The notes below the pieces were generated by a model. It ran no database searches. It had not been told where the DNA came from and saw nothing but the letters and a program-made list of their open reading frames with translations. From an uncultured Pelagibacteraceae bacterium (GTDB lineage Bacteria; Pseudomonadota; Alphaproteobacteria; Pelagibacterales; Pelagibacteraceae), in assembly GCA_902516345.1 (NCBI GenBank), contig CABXYJ010000002.1, forward strand, positions 1 to 64,000: a DNA stretch of 64,000 nucleotides, in the 5' to 3' direction. How positions within the stretch are numbered: position 1 is the stretch's first letter; every line of letters starts with the position of its first letter. Position numbers and translations under genes: made by a program. Positions 23,503 to 32,947 of this stretch are shown here, one piece after another.

Positions 23503-24273
23503 TTAATTAACTTCTTTTCTTATCTGCTCTAAATTGATCTTTTTTTGTAGACTTCTATTCTGATCATATAAAAGATTAAATTTAATCTTTTTATTCGTTT
23601 TAACACTGATAATTTTTGCATTTCTTACTTCAGAGTTATCTGCAACAGCACTTATAGGTCTTTTAATAGAGTTCAAATTTTTTATTAAAATTCTATTTGT
23701 GTCTTTTGTGATTTTACCTTTCCATCTTCTAGGTCGAAAAGGACTTATGGGTGCTATAGACAATTTTTTAGAATTTAAGCTCAATATAGGACCGTGAACA
23801 GATAAATTATAAGCCGTACTCCCAGCCGGTGTAGATACGAGAACTCCATCTGAAACAAGTTCTTTTATAATGATTTTACTTCCACATTTTATAGATAGCG
23901 ATGCTGCTTGCCTACTCTGTCTTAAAATTGAAACTTCATTAATAGCTAAATATTTTCTATTTTTACCTTTATTACTTTTAACAGTCATTTCTAATGGAGA
24001 AATAGATATCGATTTAGCTTTAGATAAATTTCTTAAAAAATTTTTTGATGAAAATTTGTTCATTAAAAAACCGTAATTTCCCGAATTTATTCCGTAAAAG
24101 CTCTTATTAGATTTTTTGTTATTTTTTAAAGTTTTTAGCATAAAACCGTCTCCACCTATCACAATAGTTCTTTGAAAATTTAGAAATTTAATTTTGTTTA
24201 GTTCTTTTAAAACTTTTTTTTTTATCTCTTGAGATTTTTTATTCTTATCAGAAATAATTTGGATTTTTTTCAT
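23503..24273 (-). CDS. nadK: NAD kinase
   Basis: Phosphorylates NAD to NADP. The family motifs VIGGDGFMLKTLKN (GGDG) and VSTPAGSTAYNLSVHGPIL are intact. The ORF track begins 12 codons inside tRNA-Leu. The correct start is the ATG at 24273 (MKKIQIISDKNKK), giving 256 residues. Only 6 nt separate the tRNA CCA end from this ATG. The mRNA is therefore almost leaderless once the tRNA is cut out, unless an internal promoter exists. Confidence 0.95.
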   Translation of the reverse strand: MKKIQIISDKNKKSQEIKKKVLKELNKIKFLNFQRTIVIGGDGFMLKTLKNNKKSNKSFYGINSGNYGFLMNKFSSKNFLRNLSKAKSISISPLEMTVKSNKGKNRKYLAINEVSILRQSRQAASLSIKCGSKIIIKELVSDGVLVSTPAGSTAYNLSVHGPILSLNSKKLSIAPISPFRPRRWKGKITKDTNRILIKNLNSIKRPISAVADNSEVRNAKIISVKTNKKIKFNLLYDQNRSLQKKINLEQIRKEVN

Positions 24274-24279
24274 TAGTTT

Positions 24280-24365
24280 TGGTGCCCTCGGCCAGACTCG
24301 AACTGGCACTCCGCAAGCGGCAAGGATTTTAAGTCCTTTGTGTCTACCAATTTCACCACGAGGGC
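24280..24365 (-). tRNA. tRNA-Leu (TAA), attachment site of tandem mobile elements
   Basis: An 86-nt class II tRNA on the minus strand. Acceptor GCCCTCG pairs perfectly with CGAGGGC. The anticodon loop is CTTAAAA (anticodon TAA). A long variable arm and an encoded CCA (24280-24282) are present. The 5' half, from the anticodon loop to just past the mature 5' end, is duplicated at 28861-28903 and partly at 31519-31539. Confidence 0.96.
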
Positions 24366-24368
24366 ATT
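24326..24368. repeat. Attachment-site repeat, copy 1 (within tRNA-Leu)
   Basis: The 43-bp sequence beginning ATTTTAAGTCCTTTGTGTCT covers the anticodon loop, D arm and 5' acceptor strand plus 3 bp upstream of the tRNA. An identical copy lies at 28861-28903. This is taken as the tRNA-proximal junction of the first mobile element. Confidence 0.9.
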
Positions 24369-24436
24369 AATGAATTTCATGAGTGTTTATGCCATTATTT
24401 ATAATTGAACAAGATGAATAAGTAAATTTTTTTTAT

Positions 24437-24468
24437 TTTATCTCTCTAGATCCGAGAATGATCCGAGA
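24437..24468. repeat. 32-bp terminal direct repeat of element 1, left copy
   Basis: The sequence TTTATCTCTCTAGATCCGAG continues to ...AATGATCCGAGA. It contains GATCCGAGA twice at 11-bp spacing. It is identical to 28705-28736 and starts 68 nt inside the tRNA-proximal att repeat. Paired words one helical turn apart look like binding sites for a recombinase or excision factor. Confidence 0.85.
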
Positions 24469-24509
24469 GTTGTCCTATAAAATCCTATAAGAATATATAA
24501 ATTTAAATA

Positions 24510-24881
24510 CTATCTCCTTGCGTCATCCAACCTTAATGTATCACTGAAATCTTCAGGACCTGGACTGAAACTTGAATACAATACAATAATCAAAAAGATA
24601 ATTGCTACTCCCCAATAAATTGGCCTTAATGGTTTGTGAAATTCTTCTGAGTCTTTCTCACGAGCTTCCCGAGCCTTATAAAATTCTTGTCTTTTTTGAT
24701 TATAAATTCTCTCTAATTCCTCAGTTTGTTCTTTAGTTAAAATCGCTTTTTTATCAAATGGAAAAAGGCCATCTCTTAAATTATATGGATGAAATTGTGT
24801 GAATTCTTTAACATCATCTTCACCATATATCTTGGAATTTTTAGCCTTACTTAATATTTTTTTAAATTTTTCTTTATTCAT
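24510..24881 (-). CDS. Hypothetical protein with C-terminal membrane helix (element 1)
   Basis: A 123-residue protein. The N-terminal 85 residues are charged and probably helical (EQTEELERIYNQKRQEFYKAREAREKD). One membrane segment follows (YWGVAIIFLIIVLYSSF) and a short acidic tail. It ends the element's minus-strand gene run and abuts the next gene. It lies 145 nt inside the tRNA-proximal end. Not recognised. Confidence 0.65.
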   Translation of the reverse strand: MNKEKFKKILSKAKNSKIYGEDDVKEFTQFHPYNLRDGLFPFDKKAILTKEQTEELERIYNQKRQEFYKAREAREKDSEEFHKPLRPIYWGVAIIFLIIVLYSSFSPGPEDFSDTLRLDDARR

Positions 24882-25550
24882 TTAAAAATTTTCTACAATT
24901 ATATTTGATAATTCTGTTTTAGAAACTTGAAATTTTTTTTCAAAATGATTTGATAAATTTAATCTTTCTTCCCAATTACTAGCCCTTATTTTTTTTATAA
25001 GTTTGATTGTTTTGTCATCATATTCAAATAAGTAATATGTCTCATTCCAAGGCATTCCAAAAGCATAGCCGACATCGATAAATAACTCATCTTTTCCATT
25101 TTTATTAAGATCTTTATCTATATAAAAATTAATATTTAAATATATTCTTCTATCTTTAAGATGTTTTCTGCCTTTAAAAAAATCAGTTCTAGAGTCGTAT
25201 TTTTCCTCATTTTTATAAAACACTTTAAAATAAGTATCATTCATACCTCGGCATCCATTATTTTCGTAAAAAACCAATTTAACACTGTTGTTTATAGACT
25301 GAGTTAGAATAATTTTTTTAAACCCATCAGAATCATATTTAGTATAGTTTATAGAAGTAAATTTTTTTTTATTAAAATAAAAACAATCCCCAGACCAACT
25401 TATACGCTTATTACTAGAAGGATTTTCATCCATAAATTTAGCAGCTTCTTTGTAATTTTTATAACCATCATCAGCAAAGTCATATTCTTTAGCGAGACTT
25501 ATATTTATTGAAAGTAAGGATAATAGTAAAATAATAAAAAATTTTTTCAT
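24882..25550 (-). CDS. Exported hypothetical protein (element 1)
   Basis: A 222-residue protein with a signal peptide (MKKFFIILLLSLLSINISLA). The mature part contains a calcium-loop-like DKDLNKNGKDELFIDVG, as in VCBS/FG-GAP-type proteins, and two cysteines (GDCFYF and NGCRGM). Its stop directly abuts the start of the following gene. No family assignment is safe. Confidence 0.68.
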   Translation of the reverse strand: MKKFFIILLLSLLSINISLAKEYDFADDGYKNYKEAAKFMDENPSSNKRISWSGDCFYFNKKKFTSINYTKYDSDGFKKIILTQSINNSVKLVFYENNGCRGMNDTYFKVFYKNEEKYDSRTDFFKGRKHLKDRRIYLNINFYIDKDLNKNGKDELFIDVGYAFGMPWNETYYLFEYDDKTIKLIKKIRASNWEERLNLSNHFEKKFQVSKTELSNIIVENF

Positions 25551-25569
25551 AGTTTAAACATCATTTCAT

Positions 25570-26010
25570 CTAATAAAATTTACACAATTCATCAACATAT
25601 TCGTAACTAGGTGCAATACCAACTTTATTACCTTTTAAATCAAAAATTGTTAATCTAGTTGGCTCAGCCCAACCTCCTGCAAAAAAATATTCTTTAACAC
25701 TAGCAAAAAAAATTGGTTGTTCTTTAATCATTGTGCACTCCTTTGCAAATTTGCCAAAACTAAAAACTCTTTTAATTGAAGTCCTTGAATTTGTTTTGGG
25801 ATCAACTAGCCATAGTTCCTGATAAGTAACTTCTTGAGTGATTACATATTTTTCATTTTCTATCTCATATTTTTCAATTATATCTCCATATTTCTCAGCG
25901 TTAAAAGATTTATAACTTGCGGCCCAAGCTTTATCTTCACCTATCAGTAAGCTTATTGTTAATATAAAAATGAATAAAATAGAAAATGGATACAAAAACC
26001 ATTGTTTCAT
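25570..26010 (-). CDS. Exported hypothetical protein (element 1)
   Basis: A 146-residue protein with an N-terminal hydrophobic signal segment ending near AWA. The mature body is beta-rich and has two cysteines (KECTMI and ELCKFY). It lies 19 nt upstream of the next gene on the same strand, likely one transcript with the two exported or membrane neighbours. Not recognised. Confidence 0.62.
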   Translation of the reverse strand: MKQWFLYPFSILFIFILTISLLIGEDKAWAASYKSFNAEKYGDIIEKYEIENEKYVITQEVTYQELWLVDPKTNSRTSIKRVFSFGKFAKECTMIKEQPIFFASVKEYFFAGGWAEPTRLTIFDLKGNKVGIAPSYEYVDELCKFY

Positions 26011-26129
26011 TAATAAACTCTAAACTTAAATATTGTCTTTATTGTGTTAATTTTTTGTAACCAGTACTTCATCTAATTGCTTTCCCAGTGTTTACTCATT
26101 TTTTTGAAAGGACAACAAATTCATTTTTT

Positions 26130-27158
26130 TCATATAATTTTTAAATCATTGTCAAAAATTGATTTAATATTTGCAACAATCTCCTCAGGGAAATTGAATA
26201 CTTCTTTATATCCATCTAATTGTTCAGGATTAATTTCTCTATCTCTATATTTTGAAAATTTATTTAATAATTTTTTTTCAATCAAATAACATTGATATAA
26301 ATTTGTTTTAAAATGTTTAACTAATTTAAAGCTTGAAAATTCTTTAGATAATCTATCTCTAATTGTTTTAGTGGTTATTCCAATTTTATACCTATTATTA
26401 TTATTAATTAAAACAGAGGCGAAATATAATTTACCTGAAGTATTAGCTAATTCTGGATTTTTTTTAAAAATTTTCATGTTATACCTGCCCTCATTGCCAA
26501 TATTATTGTTACCTAAATCTAAAGCTTCTCTAATGGTTAATCCTCTATTTAATCTATTGCGCAAAAGAGAGACTGAAAAATTAAAAACACTACAAAGATG
26601 ATTTCTATCTCTATAAAATTTTCCTTCAAATTCAAATGAGTGTTCAGTTGGTTTCAGCTCTAATTTAAATGCCTGATTAATGTTTGCTCCCTTTTCCAAT
26701 GCTGCTACAACTGTTTCGGGTGTTAATCTATAATGTCTGGCTGCTTCAGATATTGATTTATATGTTTTATTTTCAATAGTAATTTGTCTTGATCTAAATC
26801 CTCCTTGACCACCATTAGTTAATCCTGAAGGAATTGATAAAGCTCTTTCTAAAGACCAACCATATTCTTCATATCTTTTTCTAAATGTACAATAATTTAC
26901 ATTATTTTTTCTACACGCATCTTGTTTTGATTTGTATCCTACTCCATTGACAATTAGGCTAAATTTAATTTTTTTTTCAGGAGGTTGGTAATTTTTACGT
27001 TTTTTTTCTGGAACCAAATCATCGCCTTTAGCTCCACGCGAGTATCTTTTGTATACACAATTTTTTGTTATACCGTATGCTTCAGCTATCGAGGGAAGGT
27101 TTGGATATTCCACTCCCTCGACAACATGACTTCCTAATCTAGAAATTATTTTTCTCAT
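26130..27158 (-). CDS. Four HTH-like repeats fused to a GIY-YIG-like nuclease domain
   Basis: A 342-residue protein. About residues 15-220 hold four related units: SIAEAYGITKNCVYKRYSRG, SKQDACRKNNVNYCTFRKRY followed by WSLERAL, SISEAARHYRLTPETVVAAL, and NHLCSVFNFSVSLLRNRL followed by LTIREAL. This pattern resembles nuclease-associated modular DNA-binding repeats of phage homing-type proteins. Residues 240-320 (LYFASVLI, YKIGITTKTIRDRL, LIEKKLLNKF) match the T5orf172/GIY-YIG plan, with the catalytic Arg and Glu in place. It is likely a site-specific DNA nuclease of the element. Confidence 0.68.
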   Translation of the reverse strand: MRKIISRLGSHVVEGVEYPNLPSIAEAYGITKNCVYKRYSRGAKGDDLVPEKKRKNYQPPEKKIKFSLIVNGVGYKSKQDACRKNNVNYCTFRKRYEEYGWSLERALSIPSGLTNGGQGGFRSRQITIENKTYKSISEAARHYRLTPETVVAALEKGANINQAFKLELKPTEHSFEFEGKFYRDRNHLCSVFNFSVSLLRNRLNRGLTIREALDLGNNNIGNEGRYNMKIFKKNPELANTSGKLYFASVLINNNNRYKIGITTKTIRDRLSKEFSSFKLVKHFKTNLYQCYLIEKKLLNKFSKYRDREINPEQLDGYKEVFNFPEEIVANIKSIFDNDLKII

Positions 27159-27163
27159 ATTTC

Positions 27164-27511
27164 TTAAGTAGGTTTTTTATTTCCCCTTTCTTTTATGATT
27201 TCCATAAAGTCGATTACTTCACCTTCATCTTTTGCATCGTGAGTACTCTCTGCAATACACTCAACATCTTTAGGTATTTTTTTACTTTTACGATCTTCTG
27301 CAAAACCTTTAATACCTTCAGAATAAACTTTATGAGGTTGTTCAGTTGCAATTTTGACCATACCCCTTGCAATTCCTGAGCATAATTCATAATTTTCTGA
27401 GGACATTTCAGAGGACGACGACATCATAACTCCACATGTAAATCCACGTTCCCACGGAGCAACTAGCACCTGCACTGAGTTTTTGATATTTAGTTTGTTT
27501 TCCTTTTTCAT
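27164..27511 (-). CDS. Hypothetical protein (element 1)
   Basis: A 115-residue soluble protein with a Ser/Met-rich stretch (GVMMSSSSEMSSENYEL) and an acidic C-terminus. Its ATG overlaps the stop of the upstream 74-residue gene as ATGA, so the two are translated together. Such short coupled pairs are common in phage early regions. No family is recognised. Confidence 0.62.
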   Translation of the reverse strand: MKKENKLNIKNSVQVLVAPWERGFTCGVMMSSSSEMSSENYELCSGIARGMVKIATEQPHKVYSEGIKGFAEDRKSKKIPKDVECIAESTHDAKDEGEVIDFMEIIKERGNKKPT

Positions 27512-27732
27512 ATTTCAACACATTCGCCCTCAATGATTGCTTCGTCTTCCAAAACATCTTCATTAAGTACTAAATTTTCCTCATTTAAGAGTATTTTGGC
27601 ATATTTCGAAGCAATCTTGGCTTCAATGAGAGCCGATAAGCATCCAAATGAAATATTAGTTTTTTCTCCTTTCGTTATTGTGATTTCAATTTGGGGATAT
27701 AGGGTATTATTAATTTTAGTTATATCGCTCAT
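27508..27732 (-). CDS. Small acidic hypothetical protein (element 1)
   Basis: A 74-residue protein with a strongly acidic C-terminal third (LNEENLVLNEDVLEDEAIIEGECVEI). It is coupled by ATGA to the 115-residue gene. Not recognised. Size and charge would fit a small regulator or DNA mimic, but that is only a guess. Confidence 0.58.
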   Translation of the reverse strand: MSDITKINNTLYPQIEITITKGEKTNISFGCLSALIEAKIASKYAKILLNEENLVLNEDVLEDEAIIEGECVEI

Positions 27733-27805
27733 CGTTGAGTTAGATATAATTTGTATGATAAAAAAATAAAGCTAAGCTTAACTGCTGGAAGTTTCCGAAA
27801 GTAAA

Positions 27806-28600
27806 TTATCTTACCTTTAAAAAAAGACCCCAGTTATCTTCCCAATGATGTTTGAAATCTGGTTCATATGCTTGAAAATAATTTAAATCATATTGGGGTT
27901 CTTTAATTTTCATTATGCAATCATTAAATTCTTCAATTTCTTTTCTAAAAATCGATTTATTATTTTTTTCTTCAAAACTTTTGTTTAATAAGGACTCTCT
28001 TTGTTTCCAATAATTATCGGTATCAAGTATCTTTTTAACTGTATCTTTTTTATTTGGAAATTTAATATTTGTTATAAATTTATTTTTTCCTAAATTAGAT
28101 AATTCTTTTCTCTCCTCATTTTTCATTTTATATAAAGCTTTATAAGAAGCATTTCTTTGTTCTTTGGGCATATCTTCGACTTCACTATAAAGGTGCTCTA
28201 AAAAATCTATATCTCCCAGATTAGCACTATATGAGGCTTTTCTACCCTTTTGGATACCCAATCCGCTTGAGAAAGCATATGAAGTATGTAACATTAAATA
28301 TAATTTCTCATTTACAAGTTTATTAATTTTTTTGTTAGGTTTTTTTGTATACTTTTTATAAAGTTGATGAAATTCATCTATATGTTTTTTAATATATTTC
28401 CTAAGTATGACGTTACATTCTACCAATCTATACTTTCCATAAAGATAAATTCTATAATTTTTCCAAATTGATTGTGTTCTAGGTTTTCTTTTTTTCAAAT
28501 TAAATTTGGTTTTCCATTCTGAAGGAAAAATAATATTACTTTTATGTAGAAAATTTTCCAATTCTTCGAAAGTTTCAATTTTTCTTTTATTTGAACTCAT
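27806..28600 (-). CDS. Hypothetical soluble protein (element 1)
   Basis: A 264-residue basic, helix-rich protein (KYIKKHIDEFHQLYKKYTKKPNKKINKL and similar). The C-terminus is rich in aromatics (YFQAYEPDFKHHWEDNWGLF). No signal peptide, membrane segment or known motif is visible, and no tyrosine-recombinase RHRY pattern was found. It is the first gene of the minus-strand run, next to the tRNA-distal end. Confidence 0.62.
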   Translation of the reverse strand: MSSNKRKIETFEELENFLHKSNIIFPSEWKTKFNLKKRKPRTQSIWKNYRIYLYGKYRLVECNVILRKYIKKHIDEFHQLYKKYTKKPNKKINKLVNEKLYLMLHTSYAFSSGLGIQKGRKASYSANLGDIDFLEHLYSEVEDMPKEQRNASYKALYKMKNEERKELSNLGKNKFITNIKFPNKKDTVKKILDTDNYWKQRESLLNKSFEEKNNKSIFRKEIEEFNDCIMKIKEPQYDLNYFQAYEPDFKHHWEDNWGLFLKVR

Positions 28601-28704
28601 AAATTTAAAATAGCATAAATAATCGTACTCCGCTATGTACTACTCATTTGTGATTATTAATTATAAAGAGCAAAGTTTGGTGGGAGTAAGTAGATTCTTA
28701 TAAA
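28601..28704. other. Non-coding end of element 1 (promoter region)
   Basis: About 100 nt upstream of the 264-residue gene before the right 32-bp repeat. It must hold the promoter for the element's minus-strand genes. I see no clear hairpin. It opens a gene-free stretch that runs to 29175. Confidence 0.4.
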
Positions 28705-28736
28705 TTTATCTCTCTAGATCCGAGAATGATCCGAGA
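28705..28736. repeat. 32-bp terminal direct repeat of element 1, right copy
   Basis: Identical to 24437-24468 and in the same orientation, with the same pair of GATCCGAGA words 11 bp apart. It ends 124 nt before the second att repeat. In element 2 the right repeat ends 126 nt before its att, a strikingly similar distance. Confidence 0.85.
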
Positions 28737-28817
28737 ATCTGAAAACTAATTGTTAAGATTTTCCAATAAAAATAACCCAATGATTTTAAAAGTTATGGGA
28801 TTATAAGGGATTTAGAT

Positions 28818-28837
28818 CATTAGAGACCATTAGAGAC
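28818..28837. repeat. Tandem 10-bp repeat near the second att copy
   Basis: CATTAGAGAC occurs twice back to back, ending 23 nt before the att core. It could be another protein-binding pair at the recombination site. Confidence 0.6.
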
Positions 28838-28860
28838 TCTAAAATTCCTCAACTCAAACT

Positions 28861-28903
28861 ATTTTAAGTCCTTTGTGTCTACCAATTTCACCACGAGGGC
28901 ATT
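28861..28903. repeat. Attachment-site repeat, copy 2 (displaced tRNA-Leu 5' half)
   Basis: A perfect 43-bp copy of 24326-24368: the 5' half of tRNA-Leu(TAA) without its 3' half. It marks the boundary between the two tandem elements. The identity ends sharply on both sides. Confidence 0.92.
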
Positions 28904-28919
28904 CCAATTTGTCATTCTT

Positions 28920-28991
28920 ATAACTCACTTTATTTATAACTCAACCTAGTAAACAAAAGCAAATTAATATGGTGTATGACTGGTGTATGAC
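28920..28991. repeat. 72-bp terminal direct repeat of element 2, left copy
   Basis: It starts ATAACTCACTTTATTTATAA and ends with GGTGTATGAC-T-GGTGTATGAC, two 10-bp words at 11-bp spacing. It is roughly 85% identical by eye to 31321-31392, with the word pair perfectly conserved. It begins 16 nt inside att copy 2. Confidence 0.85.
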
Positions 28992-29175
28992 CCAAGTCAT
29001 CCGAGGGGTCCCAAATGGAAGTCAAAAAAGCTTAGGTTTTTAAAGGTCAATACCCTTAAATATATAAAGGGGTCCCACTACTTTCCCCTGTGTTGAAATA
29101 TTTATATTTTAAAGTTATTCTTATTAATATAATTTATAAAAATTAACTATAAAACAAATCTCTTTAACTAATCAA
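28992..29175. other. Non-coding leader of element 2
   Basis: A gene-free stretch ahead of the DUF4910 gene. It holds two copies of GGGGTCCCA (29005-29013 and 29069-29077). The rest is AT-rich and should contain the cargo promoter. No RNA gene is evident. Confidence 0.4.
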
Positions 29176-30465
29176 ATGTATATAAAAAAATATTATCTAC
29201 TAGCAAAACATACGCTTTTTCCAATATGCAGAAGTTTAACTGGCGATGGTTTTAGAAAATCCTTAAAAATTATAAAAAAAGAATTTCCTAAATTAAATAT
29301 ATACAAAGTGGCATCTGGAACTCGAGTCTTTGATTGGCATGTACCTCCTGAATGGAATATTAAAGATGCGTATATTTTAGATAAAAACAATAAAAGAATT
29401 ATTGATTTTAAAAATAATAATCTCCATTTAGTAGGATACTCCATTCCTGTTAATAAATATTTTTCAAAAAAAGAACTTTTTAATCATATTCATTCCTTAC
29501 CCGAGCAACCAAAAGCAATTCCATATATTACTTCATATTATAAAAAAATTTGGGGATTTTGTGCAAACCACAATGAAAAAATAAAATTAGAAAAAAACTA
29601 TAAAAATTCAGACAAATTTAAAGTTGTTATAAAATCTAATTTAGATTCAAAGGGCCATTTAAATTATGGAGAATTAATTTTAAAAGGAAAATCAAAACAA
29701 GAAATCTTAATTTCTACTTATTTATGTCATCCTTCAATGGCAAATAACGAATTGTCTGGTCCAATAGTTTCTATGTCTTTAATTAAACATTTTAGTAGGA
29801 TAAAAAATCTAGAAAAAACTATAAGATTTATTTTTATACCTGAAACCATCGGTGCAATTACTTACCTTAGTAAAAATTTAAATTATCTAAAACAAAATAC
29901 CATAGGAGGATACCTCCTAAGTTGTATTGGAGATGACAGGCAATATGGTTGTATGCTCTCAAAATATGGAAATACTCCGTCTGATAAAGCTATTATTATG
30001 GCATTTAAAAGTTTAAAAATTAAATTTAAAAAATATTCTTTTTTAAGAAGAACTGCCGATGAAAGACAATATAACTCTCCAGGGATAGATTTACCAATAG
30101 CATGTATATATAGATCAAGAGATGGTGCATACCCTGAATACCATACATCATTAGATAATTTTAGTTTAGTAACTGAAAGTGGTGTTAAAGGTGGTTTTAA
30201 AGTTGCTAAAACAGCAATTAATATACTCCTTAAAAAAATCATACCCCAAAATAAAATTTTGTGTGAACCAAAAATGGATAAAAGAAATCTTTACCATTCA
30301 TTATCAACAAAAAAAATAAAGAAAATTTATCAACATTATTTGAATTTTTTACAATATGCTGATGGAAAAAATGATTTAGAGAGTATTTCTATTTTATTAA
30401 ATATTAAGATAAGTTTAGCATATAAAATATATAATGTTTTAAAAAAGAAAAAATTGGTCCTTTAA
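29176..30465 (+). CDS. DUF4910 aminopeptidase-like protein (element 2 cargo)
   Basis: A 429-residue protein. The N-terminus FPICRSLTGDGFRKSLKIIKKEFP and the core IYKVASGTRVFDWHVPPEWN, STYLCHPSMANNELSGP and GIDLPIACIYRSRDGAYPEYHTSLDNF match DUF4910, a family with an M28-like zinc peptidase fold. The putative metal-binding His, Asp and Glu positions (CHPSMANNE, YPEYHTS) are kept. Family members often sit in polysaccharide biosynthesis clusters. It pairs with the methyltransferase 1 nt downstream. Codons are extremely AT-rich. Confidence 0.82.
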   Translation: MYIKKYYLLAKHTLFPICRSLTGDGFRKSLKIIKKEFPKLNIYKVASGTRVFDWHVPPEWNIKDAYILDKNNKRIIDFKNNNLHLVGYSIPVNKYFSKKELFNHIHSLPEQPKAIPYITSYYKKIWGFCANHNEKIKLEKNYKNSDKFKVVIKSNLDSKGHLNYGELILKGKSKQEILISTYLCHPSMANNELSGPIVSMSLIKHFSRIKNLEKTIRFIFIPETIGAITYLSKNLNYLKQNTIGGYLLSCIGDDRQYGCMLSKYGNTPSDKAIIMAFKSLKIKFKKYSFLRRTADERQYNSPGIDLPIACIYRSRDGAYPEYHTSLDNFSLVTESGVKGGFKVAKTAINILLKKIIPQNKILCEPKMDKRNLYHSLSTKKIKKIYQHYLNFLQYADGKNDLESISILLNIKISLAYKIYNVLKKKKLVL

Positions 30466-30466
30466 A

Positions 30467-31324
30467 ATGAAAATTCTATCTCATAAATTTTTTAATTCTA
30501 AAAAAGAAACTAGTTATTATTCTCAATTATATAAAAAAATTAATTTTAAAGAATCTTATCCAGCAGATGTAAAAAGACTGGAAATCTTTAAGTCACTTAT
30601 AAAGAAACATAAACCAAAAACTATAGTTGATGCCGGATGTGGAGCAGGTATGCCATTAATTCAAATAAAAAAAATGGGATTTAATATTACTGGTTATGAT
30701 AAAGCAAAAAATATGGTTAATGAAGCAAAGGCAAATTTAATTAAATATAAACTCCCAGAAAAATTAATTGATATTGGGAATTTTGAAAATCCAAAGCATA
30801 TAAAAGATAATTCAATAGATTGTATTTTGGGTATGGGAACTTTCTATTACTCAAAAAATTTTATCCAAACATTAAAAAACCAAAGAAAAAAACTAAAAAA
30901 AAATGGAAGATTAATTTTTTCATTGAGAAATCAATTATTTGATATTGCTACTTTAAATGATTATTCAATTAAATTTTTTTCAAATTTATATGAAATAAGC
31001 AAAACTAAAAATACATTAAAAAAAAAATATTTAAGATTATTTCAAGGATATTCTGATAGAAAAAAATTTAAATTAAAAAACATTGATGACAGCCAAGTTT
31101 ACTCTAAAACATATAATCCTCTCACAATTGAAAATCTAATTTTGAGTAAAGTAGGACTAAAATGTAATGGAATATATTTTTATCACTTTCACGCCTTGCC
31201 TCCAATATTTGAAAATATTGATAAAATTAATTTTAGAAAGCAATCTTTCAAGATTGAAAAACCAAATGACTGGAGGGGTTTTTTTATTGCCTCTGGTTTT
31301 GTCATTGACTGTCAAAAAAAATAA
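30467..31324 (+). CDS. Class I SAM-dependent methyltransferase (element 2 cargo)
   Basis: A 285-residue protein with the SAM-binding motif IVDAGCGAGMPLIQIK, the second-strand acidic residue (ITGYDKAKNMV) and SIDCILGMGTFYY. The C-terminal part (FYHFHALPPIF) resembles small-molecule or sugar methyltransferases of surface-glycan clusters. It follows the DUF4910 gene almost without a gap. Its stop lies at the start of the right terminal repeat. Confidence 0.85.
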   Translation: MKILSHKFFNSKKETSYYSQLYKKINFKESYPADVKRLEIFKSLIKKHKPKTIVDAGCGAGMPLIQIKKMGFNITGYDKAKNMVNEAKANLIKYKLPEKLIDIGNFENPKHIKDNSIDCILGMGTFYYSKNFIQTLKNQRKKLKKNGRLIFSLRNQLFDIATLNDYSIKFFSNLYEISKTKNTLKKKYLRLFQGYSDRKKFKLKNIDDSQVYSKTYNPLTIENLILSKVGLKCNGIYFYHFHALPPIFENIDKINFRKQSFKIEKPNDWRGFFIASGFVIDCQKK

Positions 31325-31392
31325 CTCGCTTTATTTATAACTTAACTTGTTAAATTAATACAAATTAATTCGGTGTATGACTGGTGTATGAC
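31321..31392. repeat. 72-bp terminal direct repeat of element 2, right copy
   Basis: Same orientation as 28920-28991, with the perfect GGTGTATGAC pair at 11-bp spacing (31372-31381 and 31383-31392). It ends 126 nt before the partial att copy. Confidence 0.85.
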
Positions 31393-31518
31393 TTTTGTCT
31401 TATTATCTTTTGCTTCCATAACTATGAATATAATTATGACAAACTAGATAACTAGGAATTACAATGGTTCTGGGTCGCCAGGGGTCAGTGAGGTTTTCTT
31501 AAATTCTCTTGATAGAAT

Positions 31519-31539
31519 ATTTTAAGTCCTTTGTGTCTA
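31519..31539. repeat. Attachment-site repeat, partial copy 3
   Basis: ATTTTAAGTCCTTTGTGTCT plus A matches 21 bp of the tRNA-Leu att core exactly, from the anticodon loop to the D arm. It then diverges. It may define the minimal crossover region and the outer end of element 2. Confidence 0.78.
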
Positions 31540-31593
31540 GGTAGGACAAAATTAATGATGAATAAATATCTGTAATAATTATTATTTATCCTG

Positions 31594-31797
31594 ATGAAAA
31601 AAAATATTCTTAAATCTCACTTAAAAAAAAAATCACAATCTAAGCTCGCTTTATCAATTAGCCTATTTATTGTACTTTTAACATCAACCGGATACATCTT
31701 TAATTCTAAAGGAATAATTTTTCTATTCTATATTTTTTGTTTTGTATTTCTCTACAATTTAATAATCAACTTCTTACTAGAAAAGTTTGATATTTAA
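31594..31797 (+). CDS. Small membrane protein, unknown
   Basis: A 67-residue protein with a basic N-terminus (MKKNILKSHLKKKSQSK), then two hydrophobic segments. It lies just outside the outermost att copy. It is followed 2 nt later by a 48-residue ORF on the same strand. Not recognised. Confidence 0.5.
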   Translation: MKKNILKSHLKKKSQSKLALSISLFIVLLTSTGYIFNSKGIIFLFYIFCFVFLYNLIINFLLEKFDI

Positions 31798-31799
31798 TC

Positions 31800-31946
31800 A
31801 TGATTAAAACACTTATTAAATTAAAGATATTAAAATTTATACTAATTGGTGGTGTATCAGCAGCTTATGCTTTTAAGAGATATTGTGATCAAAAAAATGA
31901 GGTAAAAAGTAAAAAAAACAAAAAAACTTTGCTTCTTACTAAATAA
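31800..31946 (+). CDS. 48-residue hypothetical microprotein
   Basis: Not in the ORF track. It reads MIKTLIKLKILKFILIGGVSAAYAFKRYCDQ with a Lys-rich tail (KSKKNKKTLLLTK). One membrane helix is likely. It begins 2 nt after the previous small gene and stops 8 nt before the convergent DUF6492 gene. Confidence 0.45.
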   Translation: MIKTLIKLKILKFILIGGVSAAYAFKRYCDQKNEVKSKKNKKTLLLTK

Positions 31947-31954
31947 AAATATTA

Positions 31955-32947
31955 TTATTTCTTCTTATCTCTATCATAAGCTTTTTTTTCTCTCCAAATA
32001 GATCTTTTTTCCTCGAGGTGTATATTCTCATCTTTTTTTTTTGTATGCCTTATATTATTTTCAAATGATAAAGAGGAAGGAGGAGTGTCATAATTTTTAC
32101 CTATGAAATTTAATATTGATGAATAAGATGGATAAAAATCCTCTTGTTCATTGAAATTGTTATCTTTTTTGTAATTTCTTGAAAATAAACCATTGCCGTC
32201 ATCATAAAATCTCTCAGTGGTTAAACCGTATTTTTCATAAGGATAATAATTTAAATCGTCTTTGTTTACATGATTTACCCAACTAGCATATGTCCAATAT
32301 TCACCAAAAGAGCCATGAATATTTGCAGCTTTTATTACTAATTCAATCCAATTTTTATCAGATTTGAAATGATCGTTAAATTTTGATTTGAGACTTTTCA
32401 AATACTTTTTTTTAAAAACCATATGATGTGATGTAAATGTGCCTCTAATATCTTCAACAGGATTAATATCTAATACATTTGTAATCAAATTTTTCCACGA
32501 ATTTAAAACATCTTGGTTTCCAAATGATTTATCCTGTAGTAAAGCAAACTTTTCCTTATTTTCATCAACTATTGGCCAAGATTTTACTGGCAATAGATCA
32601 GAGTCCCATACTATAAAAACTTCCTCTAATTCATCTATAACATCGTTAGCTCCTAATTTTATAATCTGTTGATACAACCATCCAGGAGTATAATTGGGTT
32701 TATTTTGGCTAATTTGTGAAATGATATCATTTTTCGTTAAACCATATTTATCTAAAAAAAAGTTATCCTCATCCAACAAAGTTAAATTTTCGATACTCCA
32801 AGATTTGGATTTATCTTTAAAAATTTTAATCTCATAATTAGATGTTACAACGTAAATTTTTTTTGGTTTATATTTTTGAGAAATTCCCTCAAGTACTGAT
32901 CTTGTACTCCAATTCACATGGTGAATTGGTATTACAAATTGGTACAT
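31955..32947 (-). CDS. DUF6492 glycosyltransferase-like protein
   Basis: A 330-residue protein with a GT-A-like layout: an N-terminal nucleotide-sugar half (FVIPIHHVNW, KKIYVVTSNYEI), the family segment GWLYQQIIKLGA, and a DxD-like motif in VFIVWDSDLLPV. It is 4 nt downstream of the cyclase-like gene and probably cotranscribed. That pairing suggests glycosylation of a cyclitol or related product, which is inference. Confidence 0.72.
   Translation of the reverse strand: MYQFVIPIHHVNWSTRSVLEGISQKYKPKKIYVVTSNYEIKIFKDKSKSWSIENLTLLDEDNFFLDKYGLTKNDIISQISQNKPNYTPGWLYQQIIKLGANDVIDELEEVFIVWDSDLLPVKSWPIVDENKEKFALLQDKSFGNQDVLNSWKNLITNVLDINPVEDIRGTFTSHHMVFKKKYLKSLKSKFNDHFKSDKNWIELVIKAANIHGSFGEYWTYASWVNHVNKDDLNYYPYEKYGLTTERFYDDGNGLFSRNYKKDNNFNEQEDFYPSYSSILNFIGKNYDTPPSSLSFENNIRHTKKKDENIHLEEKRSIWREKKAYDRDKKK

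Follow-up and report, generated by a model that had tools for sequence, protein, structure and literature searches.

Successive integration of two integrase-less cassettes into the anticodon loop of tRNA-Leu(TAA) as the probable source of its 5' half and promoter region in a Pelagibacteraceae bacterium

Sequence analysis of the window, a stretch of 64,000 nucleotides from an uncultured Pelagibacteraceae bacterium, revealed two tandem elements, A (4,535 bp, 24334..28868) and B (2,658 bp, 28869..31526), next to the tRNA-Leu(TAA) gene, neither of which encodes an integrase. We consider it highly probable that these cassettes were integrated successively into the anticodon loop of the tRNA gene by a recombinase acting in trans, and that the 5' half of the tRNA and its promoter were exchanged each time. 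Bacteria of the SAR11 group are among the most abundant in the sea, and the ways in which their streamlined genomes gain genes are largely open. The locus would represent a defined and testable route of gene traffic in SAR11, with a single tRNA gene as the common landing site and one exchange mechanism for cassettes carrying an ABC transporter, proteases, methyltransferases or restriction enzymes. Mobile DNA would thereby have repeatedly replaced the regulatory region of a tRNA that appears indispensable, and probably that of nadK as well.

Core repeats and the two tandem elements

The tRNA-Leu(TAA) gene of the window is intact (24280..24365, reverse strand; ARAGORN, Rfam RF00005), with a 3' half of host DNA and a 5' half of element DNA. 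The nadK gene, coding for NAD kinase (23503..24273, reverse strand, likely ATG at 24273; Pfam NAD_kinase_C E=1.4e-9), starts 6 nt past the 3' end of the tRNA, a spacing that makes a common transcript of the two genes likely. The pair is present in most of the 201 genus genomes, and complete relatives carry a single tRNA-Leu(TAA) gene. In a minority of the genus genomes (e.g., G144:C1:129462-132155, G188:C20, G131:C3, G091:C2 and G161:C2) the tRNA and nadK lie about 0.5-2 kb apart, which suggests that insertions occur 3' of the tRNA too.

At the tRNA, the core copy attL extends from the anticodon loop to a point 3 bp past the mature 5' end (24326..24368, reverse strand) and is repeated without mismatch (43/43) in a displaced 5' half at 28861..28903 (reverse strand), which is at once attR of A and attL of B. 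Such an exact 43-bp repeat inside 64 kb is beyond chance. The outer core copy, attR of B (31519..31539, reverse strand), matches the first 21 bp of the repeat only. ARAGORN detected no tRNA at the two copies outside the tRNA gene, and the host assembly holds no further core copy away from the locus. The preliminary description had reported a repeat of this extent with an element on the 5' side of the tRNA, which the exact match and the ARAGORN prediction confirm. Its single element is in fact a tandem of two, delimited by three core copies in register. The boundary it placed 3 bp beyond the 5' end holds in the window and fails as a general limit, as in relatives with the same promoter type at both copies the identity runs on for about 115 bp (89-97%).

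The heptanucleotide TTTTAAG is nearly invariant among the core copies; at the right ends of the elements the base preceding it is A, C or T, and the bases before that differ from the tRNA. This near-invariance points to strand exchange in the anticodon loop, with TTTTAAG (7 nt; 24327..24333, reverse strand) as the putative overlap region. Since the promoters of A and B diverge right after the 43-bp repeat, the exchange that inserted A lies within the repeat.

The cargo of A (24510..28600, reverse strand) consists of seven ORFs of 123, 222, 146, 342, 115, 74 and 264 aa, all on the tRNA strand, and the 342-aa ORF codes for an HTH and MUG113/T5orf172 protein. Element B carries a DUF4910/DUF2172 aminopeptidase-like protein with HTH_47 (29176..30465, forward strand) and a SAM methyltransferase (30467..31324, forward strand). 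Neither A nor B contains an integrase or other satellite core genes (replication genes), and neither contains phage structural or replication genes. Both ends of each element bear paired repeats of arm type. Those of A are found at 24449..24468 on the left (GATCCGAGAATGATCCGAGA, 11-bp period) and, with an identical motif, at 28717..28736 on the right; those of B (GGTGTATGACTGGTGTATGAC) lie at 28971..28991 and, again identical, at 31372..31392. Element A also has core-adjacent repeats at 28812..28839 (TTAGATCATTAGAGACCATTAGAGACTC), whose layout GACTACC..GACTA..GACTGAC recurs in relatives and satellites. Thus A and B share with elements of the tRNA-anticodon-loop tyrosine-recombinase type the att direct repeats within the tRNA gene, the restored tRNA and the arm-type repeats at both ends, and lack the integrase that this type encodes inside the element. 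The part of the tRNA that both carry is the 5' half.

Empty and filled sites and the exchange of the promoter region

The sequence to the right of B (31540 onward) has strong matches in about 17 further genomes, mostly on the contig that carries the tRNA. Its first part (31540..31960) is the ancestral flank, as it immediately adjoins the upstream side of the tRNA promoter in a relative with an empty site, G199 (L200), where tRNA, promoter and flank follow one another and 155 bp separate core and flank. Two filled relatives, L080 with two elements and L088 with one, show the order tRNA, element(s), displaced 5' half with the ancestral promoter, and then this flank, with a distance of 155 bp here too. 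Each insertion thus exchanges everything from the anticodon loop outward. At the outer copy of the window the distance between core and flank is 22 bp: about 133 bp have been deleted, with TGTCTA at both deletion ends, which removed the ancestral promoter and the rest of this copy's displaced 5' half, so that 5' halves are left only in the elements. The outer copy has often been lost: the 200 bp next to the flank contain no such copy in the window or at L071, L082, L086, L092, L201-L205, L208 and L211. Given a single-copy tRNA gene and a lost outer 5' half, tRNA-Leu(TAA) would disappear if A and B were lost together, and the hold over an essential tRNA that the preliminary description had raised is accordingly plausible.

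A promoter-sized block at the end of A (24369-24440, about 72 bp), conserved across the genus, separates the tRNA half from the left arms and contains the candidate element-borne tRNA promoter TTGTTC-N17-TAAACA (24384..24412, reverse strand). The corresponding block of B (28904-28950) differs from it in sequence and contains TTGAGT-N16-TATAAG (28917..28944, reverse strand), the candidate promoter of B, which would be the previous promoter of the tRNA and is now aimed into the cargo of A. Four upstream classes that otherwise differ, that of B included, have a motif of the form TTGNGT-N16-TATAA(C/G) at a distance of 16 nt from the 5' end of the tRNA. A scan with the sigma-70 consensus gave no significant result, barely above shuffles at best in AT-rich DNA, and it is from conservation and fixed position that we infer a promoter function of the element-end block.

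In the window, the 72 bp or so next to the tRNA on its upstream side are similar to the ancestral promoter of G199, and beyond them the sequences diverge (TATCTCTCT and arms in A, TTATTTATT-GAATATTTTATAA in the ancestral sequence). This resemblance would be expected if the insertion had occurred upstream of a resident promoter and homologous recombination had duplicated the 5' half together with the promoter, leaving the tRNA under a promoter that is still the host's. Such a course of events is very unlikely in our opinion: the block of A type runs into the element arms and not into host flank, the invariant block begins exactly at the anticodon loop, and in L089, L091 and L095 it is the tRNA-side copy that is unusual and the displaced copy that is ancestral. 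The matched arms of A lie outside 24369-24440 as seen from the tRNA, which identifies this block as element DNA, and it looks ancestral because the element carries a copy of the ancestral promoter. In the window, as in L089, L091 and L095, the promoters of the tRNA-side and displaced copies differ, and the difference between the sequences of A and B implies that the promoter of the tRNA has been swapped. The preliminary description had held that the upstream region of the tRNA now comes from the element; the empty site of G199 set against the filled sites of L080 and L088, with their 155 bp, and the position of the arms outside the promoter bear this out, despite the ancestral look of the first 72 bp of A.

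The course of events that we favor is integration with exchange. Each cassette would be inserted by site-specific recombination of the tyrosine-recombinase type in the anticodon loop, its attP bringing in a tRNA 5' half and a working promoter region, so that the tRNA would stay intact while the old 5' half and promoter would be pushed to the far end of the element. Element B would have come first and displaced the host promoter, and A next, displacing the promoter of B. The tRNA would come under new control each time, and nadK would probably follow.

The orientation of the cargo agrees with that of the tRNA in 23 of 26 unmixed elements (p=4e-5), and two of the three exceptions are homologous. 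With this orientation a displaced promoter points into the cargo, and we hypothesize that it may express it. A broader reading, to which we incline slightly less than to its contrary, is layered hitchhiking, in which a hypervariable arm address matched at both ends and giving the cassettes access to satellite integrases, takeover of the promoter and tRNA 5' half, the displaced promoter firing into the cargo and lock-in after decay of the outer copy would act together. If it is true, a decayed outer copy locks the cassettes in, because excision of both would destroy the sole tRNA-Leu(TAA).

A class of cassettes with shared ends and its likely integrase

Elements A and B belong to a set of about 28 elements of 1-8 kb which carry unrelated cargo and have conserved ends in common. 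The 83 ORFs of the integrated elements are almost all singletons, and the cargo includes an EamA transporter, an outer membrane protein (OMP), an O-methyltransferase, a caspase fusion, ATP-grasp, ABC transporter, M16 peptidase, trypsin and FrhB proteins, along with some restriction enzymes and methyltransferases. A purely defensive cargo was rejected, as transporters, peptidases and metabolic genes are present too. At L096 (902-3079) and L102 (5152-7329) a common 2.2-kb insert (279 aa and 406 aa, both ORFs opposite to the tRNA strand) lies between core copies without arm repeats and possibly represents another element class.

Repeats of at least 7 bp at an 11-bp period and constant offset were detected in 28 of 48 loci (0.5 expected). 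Among the 29 delimited elements compared, comprising 28 integrated ones and the circular L104, left and right arms agree at a mean of 17.7/20 positions within elements and 14.3/20 across them (permutation p=5e-5). The recombination address formed by the arms is thus highly variable and the core is fixed. A profile mainly of XerC/D type found no integrase in 40 loci and missed the divergent 545-aa integrase of L089 (E=2.3). The absence of integrases from the cassettes therefore rests on a search with satellite integrases, which among the integrated elements retrieved that of the satellite L089 only. No excised or circular form of an integrase-less cassette was seen.

Satellites with the same end layout were identified as the most likely source of the recombinase. 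A 7.8-kb virome contig, L104, has the attP core at both ends (period 7,700) and is read as a circular satellite with cassette-type ends. It encodes a 545-aa PF00589-like integrase (E=4.9e-5) and an AEP primase/DUF5906 protein, and in its small size, its tyrosine integrase and primase and its circular form in the virome it agrees with VEIMEs and other satellites. Furthermore, arm units are common to satellites and cassettes: GTTTCTAGT to the satellite L089 (G168) and the cassette L097, TGTGCTGGT to the satellite L206 (G120) and the cassettes L085 and L102, and GATCCTAG to the satellite L119 and the cassettes L081 and L092. Element B falls into a second class, in which the satellite L120 has B-like arms (GGGCAACTGGTGGGCAACTGG) and codes for a 515-aa protein with a tyrosine-recombinase-like C-terminus and no Pfam match. 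The right-end arms of the satellites L104, L089, L119, L125 and L206 fall within the first integrase codons, so that arm sequence and integrase N-terminus change together. The recombinase would accordingly most likely be provided in trans by VEIME-like satellites, an integrase of about 545 aa (class 1) serving A and one of about 515 aa (class 2) serving B; it would read the paired motifs of 11-bp period at both ends as arm-type sites and pair the core of the cassette with the anticodon stem-loop. Against this proposal stands the finding that satellite integrases of L104 type occur in only 4 of the 201 genus genomes, which indicates that the helper is usually absent now.

The sole Phage_integrase match in the host assembly, a 77% complete draft in which a further integrase may have escaped assembly, is a 307-aa XerC/D-like protein, and one might suppose that the XerC/XerD system of the host moves the elements and satellite integrases are not needed. 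We see little probability in this, since the core is a tRNA anticodon stem-loop and not recognisably dif-like, XerCD has no need of arm repeats that differ between elements, and the satellites with the same ends bring an integrase of their own.

Phages at related sites were also recorded. In L064 (G072:C27, 1187-2400) a podophage-like prophage (terminase, 349-aa integrase) occupies the same anticodon loop with apparently conventional polarity, a truncated 3' half of the tRNA being left beside nadK. It was set aside as a helper, because its integrase adjoins the truncated 3' half and its far end lies beyond the contig. The viral contigs L130, L134, L135, L139, L142-L149, L157, L160 and L161 have a tRNA-Leu 5'-half attP of another tRNA sequence (CCATTCCACCACGAGGCC) with GGACACC-like repeats nearby, and they probably belong to phages or satellites that share this polarity and infect other marine bacteria. 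The Charybdis elements known from ocean viromes were dismissed as a match for the satellites, as the passages found on them concern clade-P elements in marine group II archaea and make no mention of SAR11 (PMC12324425).

Relation to known mobile elements

A typical element that targets a tRNA gene restores its 3' half and leaves the promoter alone (PMC10865867). Classical tRNA prophages and islands resemble A and B in tyrosine recombination in the anticodon loop and in the restored tRNA; they restore the 3' half, whereas A and B replace the 5' half and the promoter. The polarity, called uncommon in the preliminary description, departs from these typical elements as described there, and it has precedents in T7-like cyanophages and a pelagiphage. 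In cyanophages, attP motifs situated downstream of the integrase correspond to the first half of tRNA-Leu, and PCR demonstrated integration (PMC8776855); earlier, 46 bp of tRNA-Leu had been reported from a pelagiphage-like genome (PMC3861242). The polarity alone is therefore not new.

The T7-like cyanophages P-SSP7 and S-TIP37 and the pelagiphage HTVC105P use the same tRNA-Leu site as A and B, with the first half of the tRNA in attP, and HTVC105P contains the complete 43 bp, with some 80 bp between them and the integrase gene end. These are whole phages with their own integrase, in contrast to A and B, which are cassettes of 2.7-4.5 kb without one. The same 43-bp attP beside an integrase in HTVC105P, together with the use of tRNA-Leu by pelagiphages (PMC3861242), would suit an origin of A and B as decayed prophages of HTVC105P-like pelagiphages that have lost the phage genes and the integrase. 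We regard this as improbable: the ends outside the core differ from HTVC105P, near whose attP no arm repeats were seen, and match those of the satellites, the cargo contains no phage structural genes and is unrelated from one element to the next, and decay would not preserve both ends in detail with matched arms.

VEIMEs, virion-encapsidated integrative mobilizable elements, are small marine satellites with a tyrosine recombinase (PMC10187409, PMC11389934). They are the probable helper class, to which the 7.7-kb circular L104 with integrase and primase is likened through later descriptions; A and B differ in having no satellite core gene at all. The tycheposons of Prochlorococcus are likewise cargo-carrying and tRNA-associated in streamlined marine bacteria, and they have been described with a tyrosine recombinase (e.g., PMC10872708), which A and B lack, so that these are not tycheposons in that sense. 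The texts searched on tycheposons describe no exchange of 5' half and promoter.

In their organization A and B are also similar to integron cassettes and CALIN, with integrase-less cargo, conserved ends, a recombinase presumably acting in trans, arrays, a mostly uniform cargo orientation and a promoter pointing in, comparable to the integron Pc promoter. The class differs from integrons in that recombination involves core and arm sites at a tRNA instead of attI/attC and each unit has an address motif of its own. In the papers searched, neither promoter replacement nor integrase-less elements were reported for the tRNA-Leu site; the original tycheposon and VEIME papers may already cover part of it. 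What looks new is the element class itself, integrase-less cassettes with conserved ends at this site.
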